From positions 96,222 through 160,221 of the forward strand of contig JAOZPE010000001.1 of assembly GCA_029932915.1 (NCBI GenBank): a DNA stretch of 64,000 nt, written 5' to 3'. Positions 708-35,307 of the stretch are shown here, in pieces. Made by a program: the position numbers and the translations under genes. The notes under the pieces were generated by a model. It made no database searches. It saw nothing but the letters and a program-made list of their open reading frames with translations, and was not told the origin of the DNA. The first letter of the stretch is position 1. The number at the start of each line of letters is the position of its first letter. The stretch is from Candidatus Krumholzibacteriia bacterium. Its GTDB lineage: Bacteria; Krumholzibacteriota; Krumholzibacteriia; JAJRXK01.

Positions 708-1976
708 GTGCTCGATCGTCGATTCATCCGGGAAAATCTCGAGCTCGTGGGGGAGGCCATCGCCGCCAAACGGGAATCGGCCGACCTGGACCGCTTCGTC
801 GAGCTCGATCGCCGTCGCCGGGAGCTGTTGGGGGAGATCGAGACGCTCAAGGCCCGGCGGAACCAGGCCTCGGCGGCCATCGGTGAGGCGAAGAAGCGCG
901 GCGAGGACGCCCAGGAGGCGATCGCGGCGATGCGGGAGGTCTCCTCGCAGATCAAGGAGGGCGACGAACGCCTGGCGGAGTTGGAGGCCGAGCTCCTCCA
1001 GGAGCAGTTGCGCATCCCCAACCTTCCCGACCCGGACGTGCCGCGCGGCGGCGAGGAGGAGAACGAGATCGTGCGGAGCTGGGGCGAGCCGCGCCATCTG
1101 GAGTACGCCCGGCCGCACTGGGAGATCGGCGAGTCCCTGGGCCTGCTCGATCTCGAAGCGGCTTCCCGGATGAGTGGAAGCGGCTTCACCGTCCTCAAGG
1201 GGGACGGCGCGCGCCTGGAGCGGGCGCTCATCAACTGGTTCCTCGATGTGCATGTCGAAGGGCAGGGCTACGTCGAGGTCAACGCCCCCTACCTGGTCCG
1301 CAGCGAGGCGGTGCAGGGAACCGGTCAGCTTCCCAAGCTCGCCGACGACATGTACCGCACCACCACCGACGGACTGTGGCTCATTCCCACCGCCGAGGTG
1401 TCGGTGACGAACCTGCACCGGGAGACCATTCTCGGGCCGGACGAGATTCCCCGCCGTTACGTTTCCTTCAGCCCGTGTTTCCGGAGGGAAGCGGGCAGCG
1501 CGGGCAAGGACACCCGTGGGATGCTGCGGGTGCACCAGTTCCACAAGGTCGAGATGGTGCGCTTCGCCCGTCCGCAGGACAGTGAGAAGGAACTCGAGGA
1601 ACTGGTGAACGACGCCGCCGTACTGTTGGAGGGACTCGAGTTGCCCTACCGCGTGGTGAAGCTGGCCTCGGGCGACCTGTCCTTCGCCGCTGCCAAGTGC
1701 TACGACCTGGAGGTCTACAGTCCAGGGGTGGACGCCTGGCTCGAGGTGAGCTCGTGCAGCAATTTCCGCGACTTCCAGGCCCGCCGCGCGAACATCCGCT
1801 GGCGGGCGGAGAAGGGAAGCAAGCCCATCCATCCGCACACCCTCAACGGAAGCGGGCTGGCTCTGCCGCGGGTGCTGGTGGCCATCCTGGAGAACCACCT
1901 GACCGGCACGGGCAAGGTGCGCATTCCCGAGGTGCTGCGTCCCTACATGGGCGGCCGCGAGTACATCCACTCTTGA
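708..1976 (+). CDS. serS: Seryl-tRNA synthetase
   Basis: Class II aminoacyl-tRNA synthetase (423 aa) that charges tRNA-Ser and tRNA-Sec with serine. The first ~110 residues form the long antiparallel coiled-coil arm, rich in Glu, Arg and Lys. The catalytic core follows, with motif 2 (FRREAGSAGKDTRGMLR) and motif 3 (NGSGLALPRVLVAI). I chose the GTG at 708 because GAGGAG lies a few bases upstream and the protein then starts with the standard LDRRFIRENLELV. The ORF-track extension to 612 has no family similarity. The gene is followed after 13 nt by the porY-like kinase, so they are probably co-transcribed. Serylation of tRNA-Sec by this enzyme would also feed the selenoprotein proposed at 14708. 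Confidence 0.96.
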   Translation: MLDRRFIRENLELVGEAIAAKRESADLDRFVELDRRRRELLGEIETLKARRNQASAAIGEAKKRGEDAQEAIAAMREVSSQIKEGDERLAELEAELLQEQLRIPNLPDPDVPRGGEEENEIVRSWGEPRHLEYARPHWEIGESLGLLDLEAASRMSGSGFTVLKGDGARLERALINWFLDVHVEGQGYVEVNAPYLVRSEAVQGTGQLPKLADDMYRTTTDGLWLIPTAEVSVTNLHRETILGPDEIPRRYVSFSPCFRREAGSAGKDTRGMLRVHQFHKVEMVRFARPQDSEKELEELVNDAAVLLEGLELPYRVVKLASGDLSFAAAKCYDLEVYSPGVDAWLEVSSCSNFRDFQARRANIRWRAEKGSKPIHPHTLNGSGLALPRVLVAILENHLTGTGKVRIPEVLRPYMGGREYIHS

Positions 1977-1989
1977 GGGGAGGCCGGCG

Positions 1990-3282
1990 ATGACGCCCCG
2001 GGGCGTGTTGCGGGGACCCACCGTGCGGGCTCTGCTGAAGAGCTACATCCTCGTCGGCCTGGCTCTCATCGTCGTCGGCATCGTGGTCTTCTCCCTGGGA
2101 CTCAACGCCGATGTCGAGCGGCAATCGCGACTGACCACCCGTCTGCTGGCCGATCTGGCGGCCGAGCGTCTGCTCTCGGAGAATCCCTCGCAATTGCAGC
2201 AACTGAAGGAAGCGCTCGACGCGCTCGCCGTTCCGGTGATCCTCACCGACGCCTCGGGCCGGCCGGTGTTCTGGAACGCCAACCAGGTGGGCATTCCGCT
2301 GCCGTCGGATCCGAGCATCTTCGAGAGGGACGATCCTCTGGCCCCCCACGATCCCGTGCTGGCGGAGTTGATGGCGAAGGTGAAGATCTTCGACGCCCGC
2401 CGTTCTCCGCTGCCGGTGCGCGCCCCCGACGGAGGACCGGTCCTCTTCTACCTGCACTACGGCGAGAGCGAACTCTCCCGCCGCCTGACGGTCATGCCCC
2501 TGCTCGAGGCCGCATTGATCGTGGCCTTCATGGGCGTCGCGCTGTTCGCCTTCCGCAACCTCAAACGCAGTGAGGAGCGCAGCCTGTGGGTGGGCATGGC
2601 CAAGGAGACCGCGCACCAGATGGGCACGCCGCTGACCAGCATGAGCGGATGGCTCGCCCTGCTGGCCGAGGACGAAGGAAGGAAGCCCCCGGAAGCTCCG
2701 CCCTCGTCCACTCTCGAGGGGGTCGGGATCGATCGCCAGCAGGTGCTGGCCGAACTCCAGAGGGATCATCAGCGTCTGGCCAAGGTCTCCGCCCGTTTCT
2801 CCCAGATCGGAAGCCGCCCGAAGCTCGTCTCGGCGCGGGTCGATGAACTGGTCGAGAGCGCCTGCGCCTACTTCGACCGCCGCCTTCCCCACTTGAAGAA
2901 GCACGTGACCATCGTCACCGAGGTGGAGGAGACGCCGCTGGCTCCGATCAATCCCGACCTGCTGGAATGGGCCCTGGAGAACCTCATCAAGAACGCCCTG
3001 GACGCCATCGACAAGGACCCGGGCCTGGTGAAGGTGGCTTGCCGTTACGATCCCAGGACCCTGTCGGTGGTGATCACCGTGACCGACAACGGCAAGGGAA
3101 TGAGCGCGGCGGTGCAGCGCCGGATCTTCTCGCCGGGCTTCAGCACGCGGGAAGGCGGTTGGGGTCTGGGGCTGGTGCTCGTGCGGCGGATCATCGACGA
3201 GTATCACGGAGGGAAGGTCGATGTGGCCTGGAGCGAGCCCGGCCGGGGCTCCACCTTGCGGGTGCGGCTGAAGACACGCTGA
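1990..3282 (+). CDS. porY: Membrane sensor histidine kinase, PorY-like
   Basis: This is a 430-aa sensor kinase with two membrane segments (about residues 19-38 and 167-188) flanking a ~130-residue extracytoplasmic sensor domain. The phosphoacceptor is His209 in AKETAHQMGTPLTS. The ATP-binding domain shows the N box NLIKNALDAI (~331-340), DNGKGM (~366) and the glycine-rich GWGLGL (~390). The HYGES segment before the second membrane helix and the AKETAHQ-GTPL H-box resemble, from memory, PorY of Bacteroidota, which partners PorX in control of type IX secretion. The next gene is indeed a PorX-type regulator 38 nt downstream. Kinase function is certain from the motifs; the PorY assignment is inferred from these features plus neighbourhood. 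Confidence 0.88.
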   Translation: MTPRGVLRGPTVRALLKSYILVGLALIVVGIVVFSLGLNADVERQSRLTTRLLADLAAERLLSENPSQLQQLKEALDALAVPVILTDASGRPVFWNANQVGIPLPSDPSIFERDDPLAPHDPVLAELMAKVKIFDARRSPLPVRAPDGGPVLFYLHYGESELSRRLTVMPLLEAALIVAFMGVALFAFRNLKRSEERSLWVGMAKETAHQMGTPLTSMSGWLALLAEDEGRKPPEAPPSSTLEGVGIDRQQVLAELQRDHQRLAKVSARFSQIGSRPKLVSARVDELVESACAYFDRRLPHLKKHVTIVTEVEETPLAPINPDLLEWALENLIKNALDAIDKDPGLVKVACRYDPRTLSVVITVTDNGKGMSAAVQRRIFSPGFSTREGGWGLGLVLVRRIIDEYHGGKVDVAWSEPGRGSTLRVRLKTR

Positions 3283-3320
3283 ATAGGGTATGTGAACATC
3301 GGTGCATGGCAGGAGAAGAC

Positions 3321-4877
3321 ATGAATTCCAGGACCATCCTCTGGGTCGACGACCAGATCTCCGAACTTCGCAGCCAGATCCTCTTCCTGGAGTCGAAGGG
3401 CTACGAGGTCATCGGGGTCAGCAACGGTGACGACGCGCTCGAGCAACTGAGGAATCGGCGTTTCGACGCCATCCTCCTGGACGAGATGATGCCCGGGCGC
3501 AACGGGATGGAGACCCTTCAGGGAATCCGCGAGATCGACGGCACCGTGCCCGTGATCATGATCACCAAGAGCGAGGAAGAGGAGCTGATGGATCGCGCCC
3601 TGGGTCGGCGCATCAACGACTTCCTGGTCAAACCGGTGAATCCCAACCAGATCCTGCTCTCCCTGAAGAAGACCCTGGACGAGACGGCCATCCTCGAACG
3701 CCAGTTGAGCCAGGACTACCTGAAGGTCTTCCAAGCTCTCAGCCAGGAGCGCATGGAGGCCTCGACACCGGAGGAGTGGAGCAGCATCCATGAGCGGATG
3801 GTGGACTGGGAGATCAAGCTCAGCGGTCTGTCGGACACCTCGCTGGTGCAGAGTCACCGCGAACAGGTGCGTGACGCCAACGCCAACTTCGGGCGTTTCG
3901 TGGAGAAGAACTACCGTCGTTGGATGCAGGGGGAAGGCCGGCCTCCCATGAGCACCGATGTCCTGGAACGCTGGGTGGCGCCTCACCTTCGTGCGGGCAA
4001 GAAGGTCTTCTTCTTCGTGATCGATTGCATGCGCCTCGATCAGTGGCGCCAGCTCGTGGGCTTCCTCGAGCCCATGTACCGGGTGCAGGAGGATCTCTAC
4101 TACAGCATCCTGCCCACGGCCACGCCCTTCGCGCGCAACGCCATCTTCTCGGGAATGATGCCTTTGGAGATCGCCCGACGCCATCCCCAGTGGTGGCGGG
4201 GGTCGGCCCAGGAGGAGCGCAGCAAGAACGCCTTCGAAGCGCAACTGTTGGGGGATCAGTTGAAGCGCATCGGCCTGGGCAAGATCGCCTACAAGTACTT
4301 CAAGACCTTCAACATCGAAGAGACCGAGTTGATGGCCAAACAGATCCCCAGTCTGGGGGACGTCCCGCTGGTGGTCGGGGTCATCAACTTCCTGGACATC
4401 CTCGCCCACGGCCGTTCCACCAATGAGCTGTTGATGGAACTGGCTCCGGACGAGGTGGCCTTCCGCAGCGTCATGCGTTCGTGGTTCCAACACTCGGCGC
4501 TGTACGAGTTGCTGCGTTCGCTGTCGGAGAAGAAGGGCAATGTGGTGGTCATCACCACCGACCACGGTTCGGTGCAGGTGCGCAAGGCCGCGAAGGTCAA
4601 GGCGAAGCGGGAAGCGTCGACGAACGTGCGCTACAAGTACGGGGACAACCTGGTGGTCGACGAGCACGCCGCCCTGATCATGAAGAACCCGGAGGAATAC
4701 GGCCTGCCCCAGGACAGCCCCATCCAGAACTACATCTGTGCCAAGGAATACCACTACTTCGTGTATCCGACGAACTTCCACGAGTACGAGCGTCAATACC
4801 GCGGCTCATTCCAGCACGGCGGCATCTCCATGGAGGAGATGATCATTCCCTGCTGTACCCTGACGGTGGACGAGTGA
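3321..4877 (+). CDS. porX: PorX-like response regulator with PglZ phosphatase domain
   Basis: The 518-aa protein has a receiver domain (residues 1-120; phosphoacceptor Asp54 in DAILLDEMMPG, conserved Lys104 in FLVKPV). A helical linker and a PglZ/alkaline-phosphatase-superfamily domain follow. Metal and nucleophile motifs are visible: FFFVIDCMRLDQW (~230), a candidate nucleophile Thr at about 268 in TPFARNAIFSGM, and ITTDHGSV (~413). This architecture and length match PorX, which in Bacteroidota regulates type IX secretion. I chose ATG 3321 because AGGAGA sits 4-5 nt upstream; the track start at 2967 runs back into porY and an ATG at 3306 lacks a ribosome site. Co-oriented with its cognate kinase. 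No DNA-binding domain is visible, so output is enzymatic or by protein contact. Confidence 0.9.
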   Translation: MNSRTILWVDDQISELRSQILFLESKGYEVIGVSNGDDALEQLRNRRFDAILLDEMMPGRNGMETLQGIREIDGTVPVIMITKSEEEELMDRALGRRINDFLVKPVNPNQILLSLKKTLDETAILERQLSQDYLKVFQALSQERMEASTPEEWSSIHERMVDWEIKLSGLSDTSLVQSHREQVRDANANFGRFVEKNYRRWMQGEGRPPMSTDVLERWVAPHLRAGKKVFFFVIDCMRLDQWRQLVGFLEPMYRVQEDLYYSILPTATPFARNAIFSGMMPLEIARRHPQWWRGSAQEERSKNAFEAQLLGDQLKRIGLGKIAYKYFKTFNIEETELMAKQIPSLGDVPLVVGVINFLDILAHGRSTNELLMELAPDEVAFRSVMRSWFQHSALYELLRSLSEKKGNVVVITTDHGSVQVRKAAKVKAKREASTNVRYKYGDNLVVDEHAALIMKNPEEYGLPQDSPIQNYICAKEYHYFVYPTNFHEYERQYRGSFQHGGISMEEMIIPCCTLTVDE

Positions 4878-4879
4878 CC

Positions 4880-5401
4880 ATGGACCGCGTCGTCGAAGCC
4901 GTCAGCCGCTCGTTGGAGGACACCGCGGCCCTGGGGGCCTTGCTCGCGGCGCAACTGGAGCAGGACGAGGCGGTGTGTCTGGACGGTGACCTCGGTGCGG
5001 GCAAGACCACCTTCGTGGCGGCCCTGGTGAAGGCCCTGGGTGGGGACGAGATGGCGGTGAGCTCGCCGACCTTCACCCTCGAGAACCGCTACCCGCCGCC
5101 GGCGGGGCCGTTCACGGAAGTGGTCCACGCCGATCTCTACCGCATGGACGGGGGATTGGATGAGGGGCTGGTCCTGTCGCTGATGGAGGCGCGGGAGATG
5201 GGAGCCCTGGTGGTGGTCGAGTGGGCGCGGCCGGTGACCGGGATCCTGCGCCCGTGCTGGGTGGTGCAGATCCGCCTCGACCGGGGTGAATGGGCGGCGC
5301 CGGCGGACGAGGTGCCCCGGGTGTTCGCACTCGCGCACTCGGACCATGCGGTCGAGGAGACCCTGGCCGCGAAGTGGAGACGGGTGGGAGTGGCGGGATG
5401 A
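4880..5401 (+). CDS. tsaE: tRNA threonylcarbamoyladenosine ATPase subunit
   Basis: Small P-loop ATPase (173 aa) that works with TsaB, TsaD and TsaC/Sua5 in t6A37 modification of ANN-decoding tRNAs. The Walker A motif is GDLGAGKTTFV, followed by SSPTFTLENRY and HADLYRM, all typical of TsaE. ATG 4880 overlaps the porX stop region, and an in-frame GTG at 4874 would make the overlap 4 nt (GTGA), consistent with translational coupling. tsaB follows immediately, the common tsaE-tsaB-rimI arrangement. The C-terminal ~45 residues after the conserved core are Arg/Glu-rich and less conserved. Function is essentially certain. Confidence 0.94.
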   Translation: MDRVVEAVSRSLEDTAALGALLAAQLEQDEAVCLDGDLGAGKTTFVAALVKALGGDEMAVSSPTFTLENRYPPPAGPFTEVVHADLYRMDGGLDEGLVLSLMEAREMGALVVVEWARPVTGILRPCWVVQIRLDRGEWAAPADEVPRVFALAHSDHAVEETLAAKWRRVGVAG

Positions 5402-5432: not shown

Positions 5433-6194
5433 GTGAAGCTGATCCTGGCATTGGACTCGTCGCAGCGTCTGGGTGGATCGGTGACCCTGCTCGCCGAGGA
5501 CGGCCGCAGGGCGGAGGTCTTCCACGACCGCGACCAGGGTTACGCCGAGTCGTTCTTCGCCCTCGTCGACGAGGGGCTCGAACGCCTCGGCTCACGGATC
5601 GAGGAGGTCGGGGCCATCGTGGTCATCCGCGGGCCGGGCTCGTTCACCGGGCTGCGCATCGGGGTGATGACCGCCAAGAGTCTGGCCTTCGCGCTCGACC
5701 GCCCCTTGTACGCGGCGGGGAGTCTCCAGATGCTGGCTCTGGCCGCCGGGGCGGAAGACGGATCGCCGCCGTCGCCGGATGGGGCGGGCAGCGTCCTCGC
5801 TCTGCTCGACGCCGGGCGGGGCGCCGCCTATGCGGCCGCCTGGTCCTTCTCCGCGGCCGCCCGCGAGGCGATCGCCGAGCCGCAGCGGCTCTCCCTGGAC
5901 GAAGTCGCCGCCCTGGCTTCCCGGCTCGGGCCTGCCCGCAGGGTGGTGGCCCTGGGCGAGAACGTCGCTTCCTTGGCCGAGGAACTCGCCGGCGGGGGCT
6001 TCGAGCCGGTGGTGGTGTCCTCTCTGGCGTCGATCGCGGCGGCGGCCTGCCGGAGGGGAGATCCCTGGTGCCCTTCGGTGGAACCCTCCACCCTCCTTCC
6101 GGTCTATCTGGGTCTGAGCCAGGCCGAGCGGATCCACGGAATCGATCTGGGCGACGAGGTCCACCGTCTCCGCCCACCCCGGCCGGGGAAGTAG
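5433..6194 (+). CDS. tsaB: t6A synthesis scaffold TsaB
   Basis: Inactive ASKHA-fold partner of TsaD in t6A synthesis (253 aa). The family start (V)KLILALDSSQ and the conserved VIRGPGSFTGLRIG segment are present. I chose GTG 5433 because it is the only in-frame start just ahead of the family N-terminus; the track extension to 5286 is tsaE read in another frame. The ribosome site is weak (CGAGG about 10 nt upstream), which fits coupling to tsaE. A Gly/Ala/Pro-rich insertion around residues 100-120 is longer than in E. coli TsaB. rimI follows after the stop, overlapping in the regulatory bases. Confidence 0.92.
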   Translation: MKLILALDSSQRLGGSVTLLAEDGRRAEVFHDRDQGYAESFFALVDEGLERLGSRIEEVGAIVVIRGPGSFTGLRIGVMTAKSLAFALDRPLYAAGSLQMLALAAGAEDGSPPSPDGAGSVLALLDAGRGAAYAAAWSFSAAAREAIAEPQRLSLDEVAALASRLGPARRVVALGENVASLAEELAGGGFEPVVVSSLASIAAAACRRGDPWCPSVEPSTLLPVYLGLSQAERIHGIDLGDEVHRLRPPRPGK

Positions 6195-6211
6195 GAATGG
6201 CAGGAGAAGGA

Positions 6212-6694
6212 GTGAACATCCGCCGGGCCCGGCCCGAGGATCTCCAGCTCCTGCTGGGCCTGGAGAGGGCGATCTTCCCCCATCCGTGGAGCCGCGCCAT
6301 GATCGAGGCCGAGATCGGGGGCGAGCCCGGGCGGATCTCACTCGTCGCCGAGACGGACACGGAGGCGGTGGGTTTCGCCTTCTGCTGGCGGGTGGCCGAC
6401 GAGCTGCATCTGGTGAATCTGGGCGTCCTGCCCGGCCGCCGGCGCCACGGGATCGGACAGGCGCTGCTCAAGGCGATCCTCGATCAGCCGGAGGCCGCCG
6501 GCGCGACGATCATGACCCTGGAGGTACGCCGCAGCAACCGTGAGGCCCTGTCCTTCTACGAACGTCATGCCTTCCGGGCGGTGGCCCTGCGGCCCCGATA
6601 CTACCCGGACGGCGAAGAGGCGGTGATCATGATCCGGCCGTTGGAACGGCCGCCGCGGAAAGAGCCATTGTCGGATCCCGCCGGTGGGGCCTAG
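6212..6694 (+). CDS. rimI: Ribosomal-protein S18 alanine N-acetyltransferase
   Basis: GNAT acetyltransferase (160 aa from GTG 6212). It carries the pattern LGVLPGRRRHGIGQALL (acetyl-CoA pyrophosphate loop, R-x-x-G-x-G/A) and the C-terminal NREALSFYERHAFR segment typical of RimI, which acetylates the N-terminus of S18. Start choice: the strong AGGAGAAGG at 6202-6210 lies 5 nt before GTG 6212, whereas the alternative ATG 6197 has only a sequence abutting it (GTAGGA). The family N-terminus (NIRRARPEDL) fits the GTG. Adjacent to tsaB as in many genomes. Other GNAT substrates cannot be excluded. Confidence 0.86.
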   Translation: MNIRRARPEDLQLLLGLERAIFPHPWSRAMIEAEIGGEPGRISLVAETDTEAVGFAFCWRVADELHLVNLGVLPGRRRHGIGQALLKAILDQPEAAGATIMTLEVRRSNREALSFYERHAFRAVALRPRYYPDGEEAVIMIRPLERPPRKEPLSDPAGGA

Positions 6695-6723: not shown

Positions 6724-7641
6724 ATGCCATCGTGGCTCAAGCGCGCCCGCAAGGGACTCGATCTGCTTCGCAAGGACGGCACCCCCCCGCGCCAGCGCCT
6801 GGAGGTGCCCGAGAACCTGTGGACCAAGTGTCCCGCCTGCGGCGATCTCATCTACCACAAGGAGCTGGAGGCGAACCTCTGGGTCTGCTACCAGTGCGGG
6901 CACCACATGCCCATCACCACCGAGCAGTATCTGGAGCTGCTGGTGGACGAGGGGAGCTTCCAGGAGCGGCACCGCGGTCTGGTGAGCGCCGATCCCCTGA
7001 ACTTCAAGGACTCCAAGCGTTACCGTGACCGGATCAAGGCCTACCGCGCCAAGACCGGCAAGGAGGACGCGGTCATCACCGGCCTGGCCCGCATCGAGGG
7101 CATCGAGGTGGCCCTGGCGGTGATGGACTTCTCGTTCATGGGCGGGAGCATGGGCTCGGTCGTCGGGGAGAAGATCGCCCGTTGCGCGAAGGACAGTCTC
7201 AGCAACCGCCTGCCGCTGGTCATCCTCAGCCGCAGCGGCGGCGCGCGGATGCAGGAGTCGGTGCTGTCGCTCATGCAGTTGGCCAAGACCAGCGCCATGC
7301 TCGCGCGGCTGTCCGAGGAGAGGCTGCCCTTCATCTCCATTCTCACCCATCCCACCACCGGAGGCGTCACCGCCAGTTTCGCCATGCTGGGCGATGTCAT
7401 CCTGGCCGAACCCGGGGCACTCATCGGCTTCGCCGGGCCGCGGGTCATCCAGCAGACCATCAACGCTGAACTCCCCGAGGGATTCCAACGCAGCGAATTC
7501 CTGCTCGAGCACGGCATGATCGACCGCATCGTCGAGCGCCGTGAACTCAAGCGTGAAGTCTACGAAGCGCTCCGATTCCTCACTCGATCCACGGGGTCCA
7601 GTCAGCAGGAGGAGTCCGATGCGGCCGGCGCCGGGGCTTGA
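6724..7641 (+). CDS. accD: Acetyl-CoA carboxylase carboxyltransferase beta subunit
   Basis: Beta subunit of the carboxyltransferase that makes malonyl-CoA for fatty acid synthesis (305 aa). An N-terminal four-cysteine zinc ribbon (CPAC at ~38, CYQC at ~57) precedes the crotonase-like core with MDFSFMGGSMGSVVGEK, SGGARMQESV and the HPTTGGVTASFAMLGD oxyanion region. GGAGGA lies before ATG 6724. It overlaps folC by 23 nt, the classic accD-folC pair. The last ~20 residues are low-complexity and encode the folC ribosome site. accA is not in the window. Confidence 0.96.
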   Translation: MPSWLKRARKGLDLLRKDGTPPRQRLEVPENLWTKCPACGDLIYHKELEANLWVCYQCGHHMPITTEQYLELLVDEGSFQERHRGLVSADPLNFKDSKRYRDRIKAYRAKTGKEDAVITGLARIEGIEVALAVMDFSFMGGSMGSVVGEKIARCAKDSLSNRLPLVILSRSGGARMQESVLSLMQLAKTSAMLARLSEERLPFISILTHPTTGGVTASFAMLGDVILAEPGALIGFAGPRVIQQTINAELPEGFQRSEFLLEHGMIDRIVERRELKREVYEALRFLTRSTGSSQQEESDAAGAGA

Positions 7642-33279: not shown

Positions 33280-35307
33280 CTATTTCACCAGCGTGATGTG
33301 CTGTCCCTGCCGTGCTCCCGGGGTTTCGATGATGACCGTGTAGACGCCCGAGGCCACCCGCCTTCCCTGGTCGTCCTTCCCCTGCCACTGCCATTCATGC
33401 AGCCCGCCCGAGAGCACCGCGCTCAGCGCATGGCGTACGGTGCGGCCGCGTGCGTCGACGATGCGCAACTGGACGGGAAGCTCACCGGGGGCGACGAAGC
33501 GCAGGGTGGTGGAGGGATTGAAGGGGTTCGGCGTATTGGGCAACAACTGCAGGGAATAGCCGTCCAGATGCGGGGTCGAGGTGACCGTGTCGTCGGTCTG
33601 GTTCCACCGCAGCACCCATTCATCGGGGTCGAGGCGCACGTCGAGGGGCTCGGCGTGCACGAGGAAGGAGGTCGTCTGGTAGGCCCCGTCGTTCCACACG
33701 GTGAAGGTCTCGCTGCCCGCAGTGGTGTCCACCACGAAATCCAGCGGCATGCGGTAGATCTCGCTGTCCTGCACCTGTTCGATGGAGATCGTCACCCGGT
33801 AGTCCTCTCCTTCCGGCTGACTGTGCCAGGTGACGTCGTAGTCGGGGCGCCCGATGCGATACAACCACTCGTCGAAGAACCAGCTCAACTCGGTGGAGCT
33901 GACGTCCTCGGCGATGCGGATGAAGTCGTCGAAGGTGGCCGCGCCGAAGCGCAGCGTGGGATCGGAGGTGTAGGTGCGCAGGATCTCGAAGAAGTCGTTG
34001 TCGCCGACCATGTGGCGCAGCATGTGGAGGATCCACGCCCCCTTCTGGTACACCGTGTCGCCGAAGAGGGGGGTCGGCGGACACACGGGACCCCAGAAGC
34101 CAATCTGGTAGGCGGAAATCGAACGCATGTAATGCCGCATGGCGGCGAAGCCGCTCTTGTGTTCGATCCACAGCGCCTCGGCGTAGGTGGCGAAGCCCTC
34201 GTGCAGCCACACCTGGTCCCAATCCTTCACCGTCACCAGGTTGCCGAACCACTGGTGGGCCATCTCGTGGCCGACCAGCCGCTCGAAGAAGCCGTCGCCG
34301 GTGACGAGCTCCTGCCCGTAGCTGGTCATGGTCTGGTGTTCCATGGCCCCGTCGTAGATGAACTCGGCCATGCCGTACTTCTCGTCGACGAAGGGGTACT
34401 CGCCGAAGAGGACCGAATAGAGGTCGAGCATGTCCCGGGTAGCGGCCCAGTCGACCAGCGCCTTCTCCAGATCCTCGGGGAAGACCTTGTACTCGAGGGT
34501 CATCTGCTTGCCGCTCGGCGCCGTCCACGTCTCGGTCCATCCCACGTAGTTGGTGACCGCCACGGAGATGTTGTAGGCGCTGATGGGATAGCTCTCCTCC
34601 CAGGTGAAGAGCGTGCGTCCGTCGGGCATCTCCTGCTGCTCGGTGAGCACACCGTTGCCCGCGCAATAGTAGCCTTCGGGGGCGAGCAGGCGCAGACGCA
34701 TGGTGGCCTTGTCGTCGGGGAGATCCTTGCACGGCCACCACGAACGCGAGTAGTAGGGTTCGCTCAAGGTGGCCAGGATGGGTGTCCCATCGTGTTCGAG
34801 GAATTGCATGCCCAGGAAACCGGCCGGTTCGGGTGTTCCCTCGTAGTCGACGACGACGGTGATCGTGTCGCCCATCGCCAATGGGGTCATCAGTTGCAGG
34901 ATGACCAGGTCGTCCTGGTGGGTGAAGCTCAAGGGCCGGTGCAGGCCATCGTGGGCTCCGGTGGCCTCGAGGTCCTGGAATAGATCCAGATCGACCTTGT
35001 CGAGTCCGTCCGCGAGACTGGAGAGCTTGATGCAGACCGTTCCCTGGATGCTCTTCTCGCCGAAGTCCGGTTCGAGATACAGGTCGTAGTGCTCGATGTC
35101 GTAGAGCAGTTGGTTGGGTGTGGCGACCTTGGTACTGGTGGTCTTGGACGAGGCGGAGAAGTCGAAGTAGGGATGCTCGCCGTGTGCCGAACGGGGGACG
35201 GGAGAGGACACACCTCCACCCTGGGCCGAAAGAGGCGCGAGGACACAGAACATACATGCGGCGATCGCGGTCAACCAGACCCGCCGCGGGCGAGATGAAG
35301 GAATCAT
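33280..35307 (-). CDS. Secreted M1 zinc aminopeptidase with FlgD/Por-type C-terminal sorting domain
   Basis: 675-aa exported metallopeptidase. After a signal peptide (~8-29) comes the M1 beta domain, then the exopeptidase motif as GAMEH rather than GAMEN (~320). The zinc site HEMAHQWFGN (~348) has its second ligand in WLHEGFATYAE (~371). The last ~90 residues, LLPNTPNPFNPSTTLRF through ASGVYTVIIETPG to ITLVK, are a FlgD-Ig-like/Por-type C-terminal domain, a sorting signal for type-IX-like secretion in FCB bacteria. It trims N-terminal residues of peptides, probably outside the cell or on its surface. Fits the PorYX pair at 2-4.9 kb. Diverges from the lipoprotein gene at 35693. Confidence 0.9.
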   Translation of the reverse strand: MIPSSRPRRVWLTAIAACMFCVLAPLSAQGGGVSSPVPRSAHGEHPYFDFSASSKTTSTKVATPNQLLYDIEHYDLYLEPDFGEKSIQGTVCIKLSSLADGLDKVDLDLFQDLEATGAHDGLHRPLSFTHQDDLVILQLMTPLAMGDTITVVVDYEGTPEPAGFLGMQFLEHDGTPILATLSEPYYSRSWWPCKDLPDDKATMRLRLLAPEGYYCAGNGVLTEQQEMPDGRTLFTWEESYPISAYNISVAVTNYVGWTETWTAPSGKQMTLEYKVFPEDLEKALVDWAATRDMLDLYSVLFGEYPFVDEKYGMAEFIYDGAMEHQTMTSYGQELVTGDGFFERLVGHEMAHQWFGNLVTVKDWDQVWLHEGFATYAEALWIEHKSGFAAMRHYMRSISAYQIGFWGPVCPPTPLFGDTVYQKGAWILHMLRHMVGDNDFFEILRTYTSDPTLRFGAATFDDFIRIAEDVSSTELSWFFDEWLYRIGRPDYDVTWHSQPEGEDYRVTISIEQVQDSEIYRMPLDFVVDTTAGSETFTVWNDGAYQTTSFLVHAEPLDVRLDPDEWVLRWNQTDDTVTSTPHLDGYSLQLLPNTPNPFNPSTTLRFVAPGELPVQLRIVDARGRTVRHALSAVLSGGLHEWQWQGKDDQGRRVASGVYTVIIETPGARQGQHITLVK

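Follow-up and report, generated by a model that had tools for sequence, protein, structure and literature searches.

In the Bacteroidota, the sensor kinase PorY and the response regulator PorX form a two-component pair that controls the type IX secretion system (T9SS). Phosphorylated PorX docks on the cytoplasmic part of PorL/GldL (PMC5005315, PMC10951265), and current models treat PorX as a switch of the CheY type that acts on the GldL motor. SigP, a sigma factor, has been reported as a further route of PorX action (PMC4800418), and oligoadenylates, both cyclic and linear, are substrates that the PglZ domain of PorX hydrolyses (PMC11320123). The step from PorY to PorX is debated even in P. 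gingivalis, since deletion of porY does not abolish the T9SS of this organism (PMC11320123). The T9SS itself is described as Bacteroidota-specific in two papers (PMC10994853; PMC6851124). Sorting domains outside the Bacteroidota have already been noted in Fibrobacter succinogenes and other FCB phyla (PMC6851124, PMC11285876), in passages that neither describe PorXY nor test for the motor. A search of the literature open without subscription found no paper treating Krumholzibacteriota and the T9SS together.

The window discussed here is a 64,000-nucleotide stretch from the 2.92-Mb draft genome of a member of the Krumholzibacteriota (the host). The original prediction, made from the letters of the window, was that a membrane kinase followed by a receiver-PglZ regulator formed a PorY/PorX-type pair outside its Bacteroidota context. 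The reading favored here, with a probability of about 0.75, is that PorXY is a vertically inherited, orthologous two-component system controlling an SprA-type T9SS that lacks a detectable GldL/GldM/GldN motor. The features of the window that bear on this reading are listed in Table 1.

Table 1. Window features, with coordinates counted from the first nucleotide of the window.
Feature	Coordinates	Strand	Description
serS	708..1976	+	Conserved upstream neighbour; ends 13 bp before porY
porY	1990..3282	+	Predicted membrane sensor histidine kinase of 430 aa, with an extracytoplasmic domain (~130 aa) between its two TM helices; H209 lies in H-box MAKETAHQMGTPL; N box NLIKNALDAI; G boxes present
porX	3321..4877	+	518 aa, ATG at 3321; receiver (D54, K104), linker and PglZ phosphodiesterase domain (T268, D359, H363, D414, H415, H499)
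tsaE	4880..5401	+	Conserved downstream neighbour, immediately 3' of porX
tsaB	5436..6194	+	Conserved neighbour
rimI	6197..6694	+	Conserved neighbour
accD	6724..7641	+	Neighbour conserved across FCB
Candidate T9SS cargo, M1 aminopeptidase-like	33280..35253	-	657 aa; sorting-domain-like C-terminus, residues ~570-646

The regulator has the length of PorX and, as predicted, combines Response_reg and PglZ domains, both of which were matched in a domain search. Its score against NF052313, the "T9SS response regulator PorX" equivalog model, was 651 bits (cut-off 300), and the solved PorX structures of P. gingivalis (7pv7, E 1e-135) and F. johnsoniae (8ted) align with it over their full length. An ORF listing places the start at 2967, which is merely an in-frame start further upstream, and the ATG in Table 1 was taken instead. 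The Asp54, Lys104, candidate Thr268 and TTDHG metal motif of the original prediction are intact: D54, K104 and T268 align with D58, K108 and T272 of P. gingivalis, TTDHG includes D414/H415, and all eight tabulated residues, with D359, H363 and H499 as the further metal ligands tallied, are invariant in an alignment of 70 PorX sequences; the last Asp ligand sits in FFVID, a column outside this tally. These residues correspond to the phospho-Asp, catalytic Thr and zinc ligands of F. johnsoniae and P. gingivalis PorX (PMC10951265, PMC11320123), which suggests that the phospho-switch and the phosphodiesterase are both held by selection. On these grounds the product is assigned as a PorX orthologue, like its Bacteroidota counterparts in length, domain order, phospho-Asp, Thr nucleophile and tallied ligands. 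It differs from them in that PorL/GldL, which was shown to be the partner of PorX in Bacteroidota, is undetectable in its genome, and in that porX adjoins porY, whereas the porY of P. gingivalis lies elsewhere (PMC5005315, PMC11320123). A whole-genome search found this to be the single PglZ gene of the host, and PorX scored above the cut-off in 55 of 58 Krumholzibacteriota genomes. Three genomes (G020, G047 and G052) gave no PorX match above the cut-off, and in two single-contig assemblies (G027 and G040) PorX occurs as two far-apart pieces that are either assembly artefacts or true splits.

The predicted membrane kinase upstream of the regulator was likewise recovered, with an HATPase_c domain scoring 72 bits, an H-box of the AKETAHQ-GTPL type, MAKETAHQMGTPLTS, and H (H209), N and G boxes that are all intact. 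The gap between its second TM helix and the H-box is too short for a HAMP domain. A PorY profile made with sequences of Krumholzibacteriota, of Zixibacteria and of a single MAG labelled as Bacteroidota picked out a single clear outlier kinase in 11 of 12 genomes: 546 bits in the host, 539 in Zixibacteria, 398-452 in Ignavibacteria-type genomes, 352 in Owenweeksia and 306 in Bacteroidetes ADurb.Bin217, the next-best kinases reaching at most 127 bits. In the remaining genome of the twelve, a 1.8-Mb Lutibacter MAG, the profile found no such outlier. All 11 outliers carry the H-box AHQxGTP, and the three next-best kinases that were checked carry AHEI(K/R)NP. With one best full-length outlier per genome and this common H-box, the window kinase is identified from sequence as orthologous to Bacteroidota PorY, from which it differs in its position directly 5' of porX and in an extracytoplasmic domain that is weakly similar. 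Attempts to identify the sensor domain by fold were set aside; the PorY model (mean pLDDT 81) resembled only generic histidine kinases and LOV-kinase chimeras, with low TM-scores.

As PorY and PorX are best known from the Bacteroidota, the pair could conceivably have been acquired from that phylum by horizontal transfer and be unrelated to local biology. This is extremely improbable. In a midpoint-rooted tree of PorX sequences only, with no non-PorX PglZ outgroup, the window protein groups with its own family (support 100/99), all 21 Krumholzibacteriota rows fall on one side of a branch (98/94), Zixibacteria are adjacent (99/99), and Bacteroidia are separate with full support (100/100). This topology is as vertical descent predicts, and the nearest named PorX relative, at 65% identity, comes from a Candidatus Krumholzibacteriota MAG (JAJRXK010000050.1). 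The record of this MAG (G058) has PorU at coordinates identical to those in G004, a genome listed as belonging to the family of the window. The tree places the regulator inside the PorX family rather than as a lone or transferred outlier, and the claim that the pair lies outside the Bacteroidota is supported by the tree and by these Krumholzibacteriota relatives. The presence of PorX in 55/58 genomes of the phylum and the conserved local gene order also stand against transfer, which the tree and gene order together rule out.

The serS and tsaE neighbours of the original prediction were both found, and the arrangement is widely kept. Within the Krumholzibacteriota, serS lies upstream of porY-porX in 24 of 30 loci (several others are too short to test), and porX adjoins tsaE in 26 of 30; serS is also upstream in both Zixibacteria loci (2/2). 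The porY gene is immediately 5' of porX in 26 of the 28 Krumholzibacteriota loci with room and in 2/2 Zixibacteria loci, and in three other Krumholzibacteriota loci it lies 700-790 bp from porX, one short locus having been counted as adjacent, so that the two groups overlap; gene calls suggest an extra ORF in between in at least two of the three. Elsewhere in FCB, porY mostly lies apart from porX, and porX-tsaE adjacency persists in 30 of 35 loci, often with tsaB and accD alongside. The housekeeping run is the ancestral location of porX, since the porX-tsaE order persists across FCB, and sprA is retained there in at least one branch. In four Ignavibacteria- or Bacteroidetes-labelled MAGs (L003, L004, L005 and L006), an SprA homologue lies directly 5' of porX-tsaE (167-256 bits by BLAST against host SprA). 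With serS-porY-porX-tsaE kept across the phylum and Zixibacteria, and porX-tsaE across FCB, the housekeeping setting is nothing unusual.

Parts of the T9SS were sought by profile (SprA, PorU, the PorV family, the sorting domain, GldL, GldM and GldN), in draft assemblies throughout. SprA was matched in all 58 Krumholzibacteriota genomes, 55 of them above the cut-off, with zero matches in control genomes. Host SprA is a single 2330-codon frame on contig C95, where no motor gene was found in its neighbourhood. The order at this locus (L089:3443-11421) is infB-L7Ae-nusA-rimP-x-sprA, followed by divergent lptF/lptG-like genes, and a 349-aa protein of unclear function is encoded behind sprA. The sorting domain TIGR04183 occurs in 58/58 genomes of the phylum, with 52 matches in the host, and in 2 of 14 controls, one above the cut-off; in the host proteins inspected, the sorting-domain tails are at the extreme C-terminus. 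PorV-family proteins are also found in 58/58 genomes (11 matches in the host), and PorU matched in 33 of 33 genomes searched, the host exceeding the cut-off with 428 bits against 420.

PorU and PorV of the host are adjacent on contig C50, and behind them comes an M6-like protein that carries a sorting domain (L150:5712-14502), a row that forms a candidate attachment-complex locus. Four more stretches are called as large proteins with terminal sorting-domain tails, three of them at C25-like PorU-profile matches. Elsewhere, a 1222-aa sorting-domain protein is paired with a 309-aa PorV-family protein (L176:2106-6793, contig C9), which suggests cargo-specific PorV shuttles. Taken together, these matches rule out a genome with no T9SS. 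The regulator belongs to the PorX clade, T9SS genes and sorting domains are both present, and, contrary to the earlier suggestion, the pair is not out of T9SS context. The observation that no por structural genes lie nearby does hold: the T9SS genes are scattered, and the window contains only the one candidate cargo of Table 1, whose tail scores 17.6 bits against TIGR04183 (under the cut-off of 23) and best matches PorU/PorZ tails. This tail is also similar to FlgD.

The resemblance to the Bacteroidota T9SS is one of SprA, PorU beside PorV, PorV paralogues and C-terminal type A sorting domains, and the differences are dispersed genes and no match to GldL, GldM or GldN. The claim made from these profile matches is accordingly confined to a putative translocon/sortase module, as opposed to a canonical complete T9SS. 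GldM was matched by profile in none of the 58 Krumholzibacteriota genomes, nor in the Ignavibacteria-type, Kapaibacteria, Chlorobiota-labelled and Zixibacteria genomes reached through loci. GldL and GldN, each searched in 33 genomes, had no credible match outside three Bacteroidia; as G004 and G058 appear to be the same genome, this set holds 29 independent negatives. The GldL model TIGR03513 likewise found nothing in the host genome and matched its positive controls. All three proteins, the motor pair GldL and GldM and the ring protein GldN, were matched in each Bacteroidia control (Owenweeksia, Lutibacter and Bacteroidetes ADurb.Bin217), with best stretches of 243-473 bits for GldM, 132-191 for GldL and 128-276 for GldN. 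One GldL-like match in genome G008 (E 9e-4, 19.8 bits, positions 100-235 of an 894-aa frame) fell below the cut-off of 68.3 and was taken as a chance match in an unrelated long protein. Among the papers listed in a search of the literature open without subscription, none addressed the distribution of the motor across other FCB groups.

It would appear from these searches that GldL/PorL, the partner of PorX, is absent from the genome. There is, of course, a distinct possibility, short of being probable, that a relative of GldL, GldM and GldN drives secretion here, is too diverged for the models, and is bound by PorX as in Bacteroidota. The absence comes from profile searches alone, with models derived from Bacteroidota; divergence is rapid in short TM proteins, of which GldL is one; and GldLM is needed for secretion in F. 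johnsoniae (PMC10994853). However, SprA, PorU, PorV and PorX models of the same training range readily match in the genomes negative for the motor, scoring hundreds of bits, and three independent proteins all lack a credible match outside the Bacteroidia. The best reading is that an ancestral PorXY serves a T9SS in which no GldLMN motor can be recognised. The original prediction stands as to the identity of PorY and PorX and their occurrence outside the Bacteroidota; control of the Bacteroidota type does not transfer unaltered to this genome, GldL/PorL, GldM and GldN being undetectable.

Another motor could conceivably be provided by ExbB. When MotA/ExbB proton-channel proteins were searched in 28 genomes and compared with PorV-family positions, each of the 15 Krumholzibacteriota genomes examined proved to have one ExbB-type copy that shares its strand with a PorV-family gene at a distance of 1-5 kb. 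The operon order is TonB-dependent receptor, sorting-domain protein, PorV-like, GWxTD protein, ExbB, ExbD, ExbD, TonB, TolC-like and ABC ATPase, and the host copy is at L135:904-11817 (G000:C70:32903-43816). Two loci (L141 and L142) yielded no sorting-domain protein, and the ExbD/TonB genes were unmatched in two others (L139 and L140), some loci being cut by contig ends. Since PorV-family genes pair with sorting-domain proteins elsewhere in the host (L176 and L150), the PorV-cargo link alone is not special; the special part is the link to ExbB-ExbD-TonB. Similar sets that are not linked to PorV exist as well, ExbB-ExbD-ExbD-TonB in Zixibacteria and Ignavibacteria-type genomes and ExbB-ExbD-ExbD in Owenweeksia (Bacteroidia), so that ordinary nutrient uptake is the simpler reading of the operon. 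It is quite unlikely that the T9SS of Krumholzibacteriota, and perhaps of all FCB outside Bacteroidia, is driven by a Ton-type ExbB-ExbD-TonB rather than GldLM, with the motor genes sharing an operon, in this phylum, with those for a TonB-dependent receptor, a PorV paralogue and, in most cases, a sorting-domain protein.

The phosphotransfer, signal, substrate and T9SS control that we infer for the pair would run as follows. The porY and porX genes are encoded as one unit within the serS-porY-porX-tsaE-tsaB-rimI-accD run. The periplasmic domain of PorY would sense an envelope signal, and PorY would autophosphorylate at H209 and pass the phosphate to D54 of PorX. Phospho-PorX, as a PglZ zinc phosphodiesterase (active on (cyclic) oligonucleotides in Bacteroidota), would then tune a T9SS made up of the SprA pore, PorV shuttles, PorU sortase and sorting-domain cargoes, with no detectable GldL, GldM or GldN. 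If GldL is truly absent, PorX would act by a route other than GldL docking, via another motor, transcription or its nucleotide substrate; the routes favoured here are a different protein partner or the nucleotide substrate. A related possibility is that PorXY, though ancestral and orthologous, is mainly engaged here in general nucleotide or envelope signalling, and that T9SS control is a Bacteroidota specialisation. The undetectable GldL partner in a genome with both PorX and PorY, the placement of porX within a translation/tRNA-modification run, and the fully conserved PglZ active site would all fit such a role, which is nonetheless unlikely: the phyletic range of PorX is that of SprA, PorU, PorV and the sorting domain in every group sampled, and sprA is directly 5' of porX in the four MAGs mentioned above. 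Within the phylum, the co-occurrence of PorX (55/58) and SprA (58/58) is a test with almost no negative cases, because both are so nearly universal. T9SS control by PorXY remains the preferred reading.

The pair is real and not out of place, and the point of note for specialists is the missing GldLMN. For annotation, a T9SS translocon is now assigned to a phylum in which the literature searched mentions none. That porY and porX stay linked in Krumholzibacteriota and Zixibacteria also provides independent genetic support for PorY as the native kinase of PorX. If PorXY, SprA, PorU, PorV and sorting domains are FCB-wide and GldLMN is confined to Bacteroidia, an origin of PorX as a switch for GldL is not required, and what powers the T9SS elsewhere becomes a testable question. 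Finally, were the Ton-type motor to prove true, PorX/PorY would be an older control layer, to which GldLM and PorX docking were added later in Bacteroidia.
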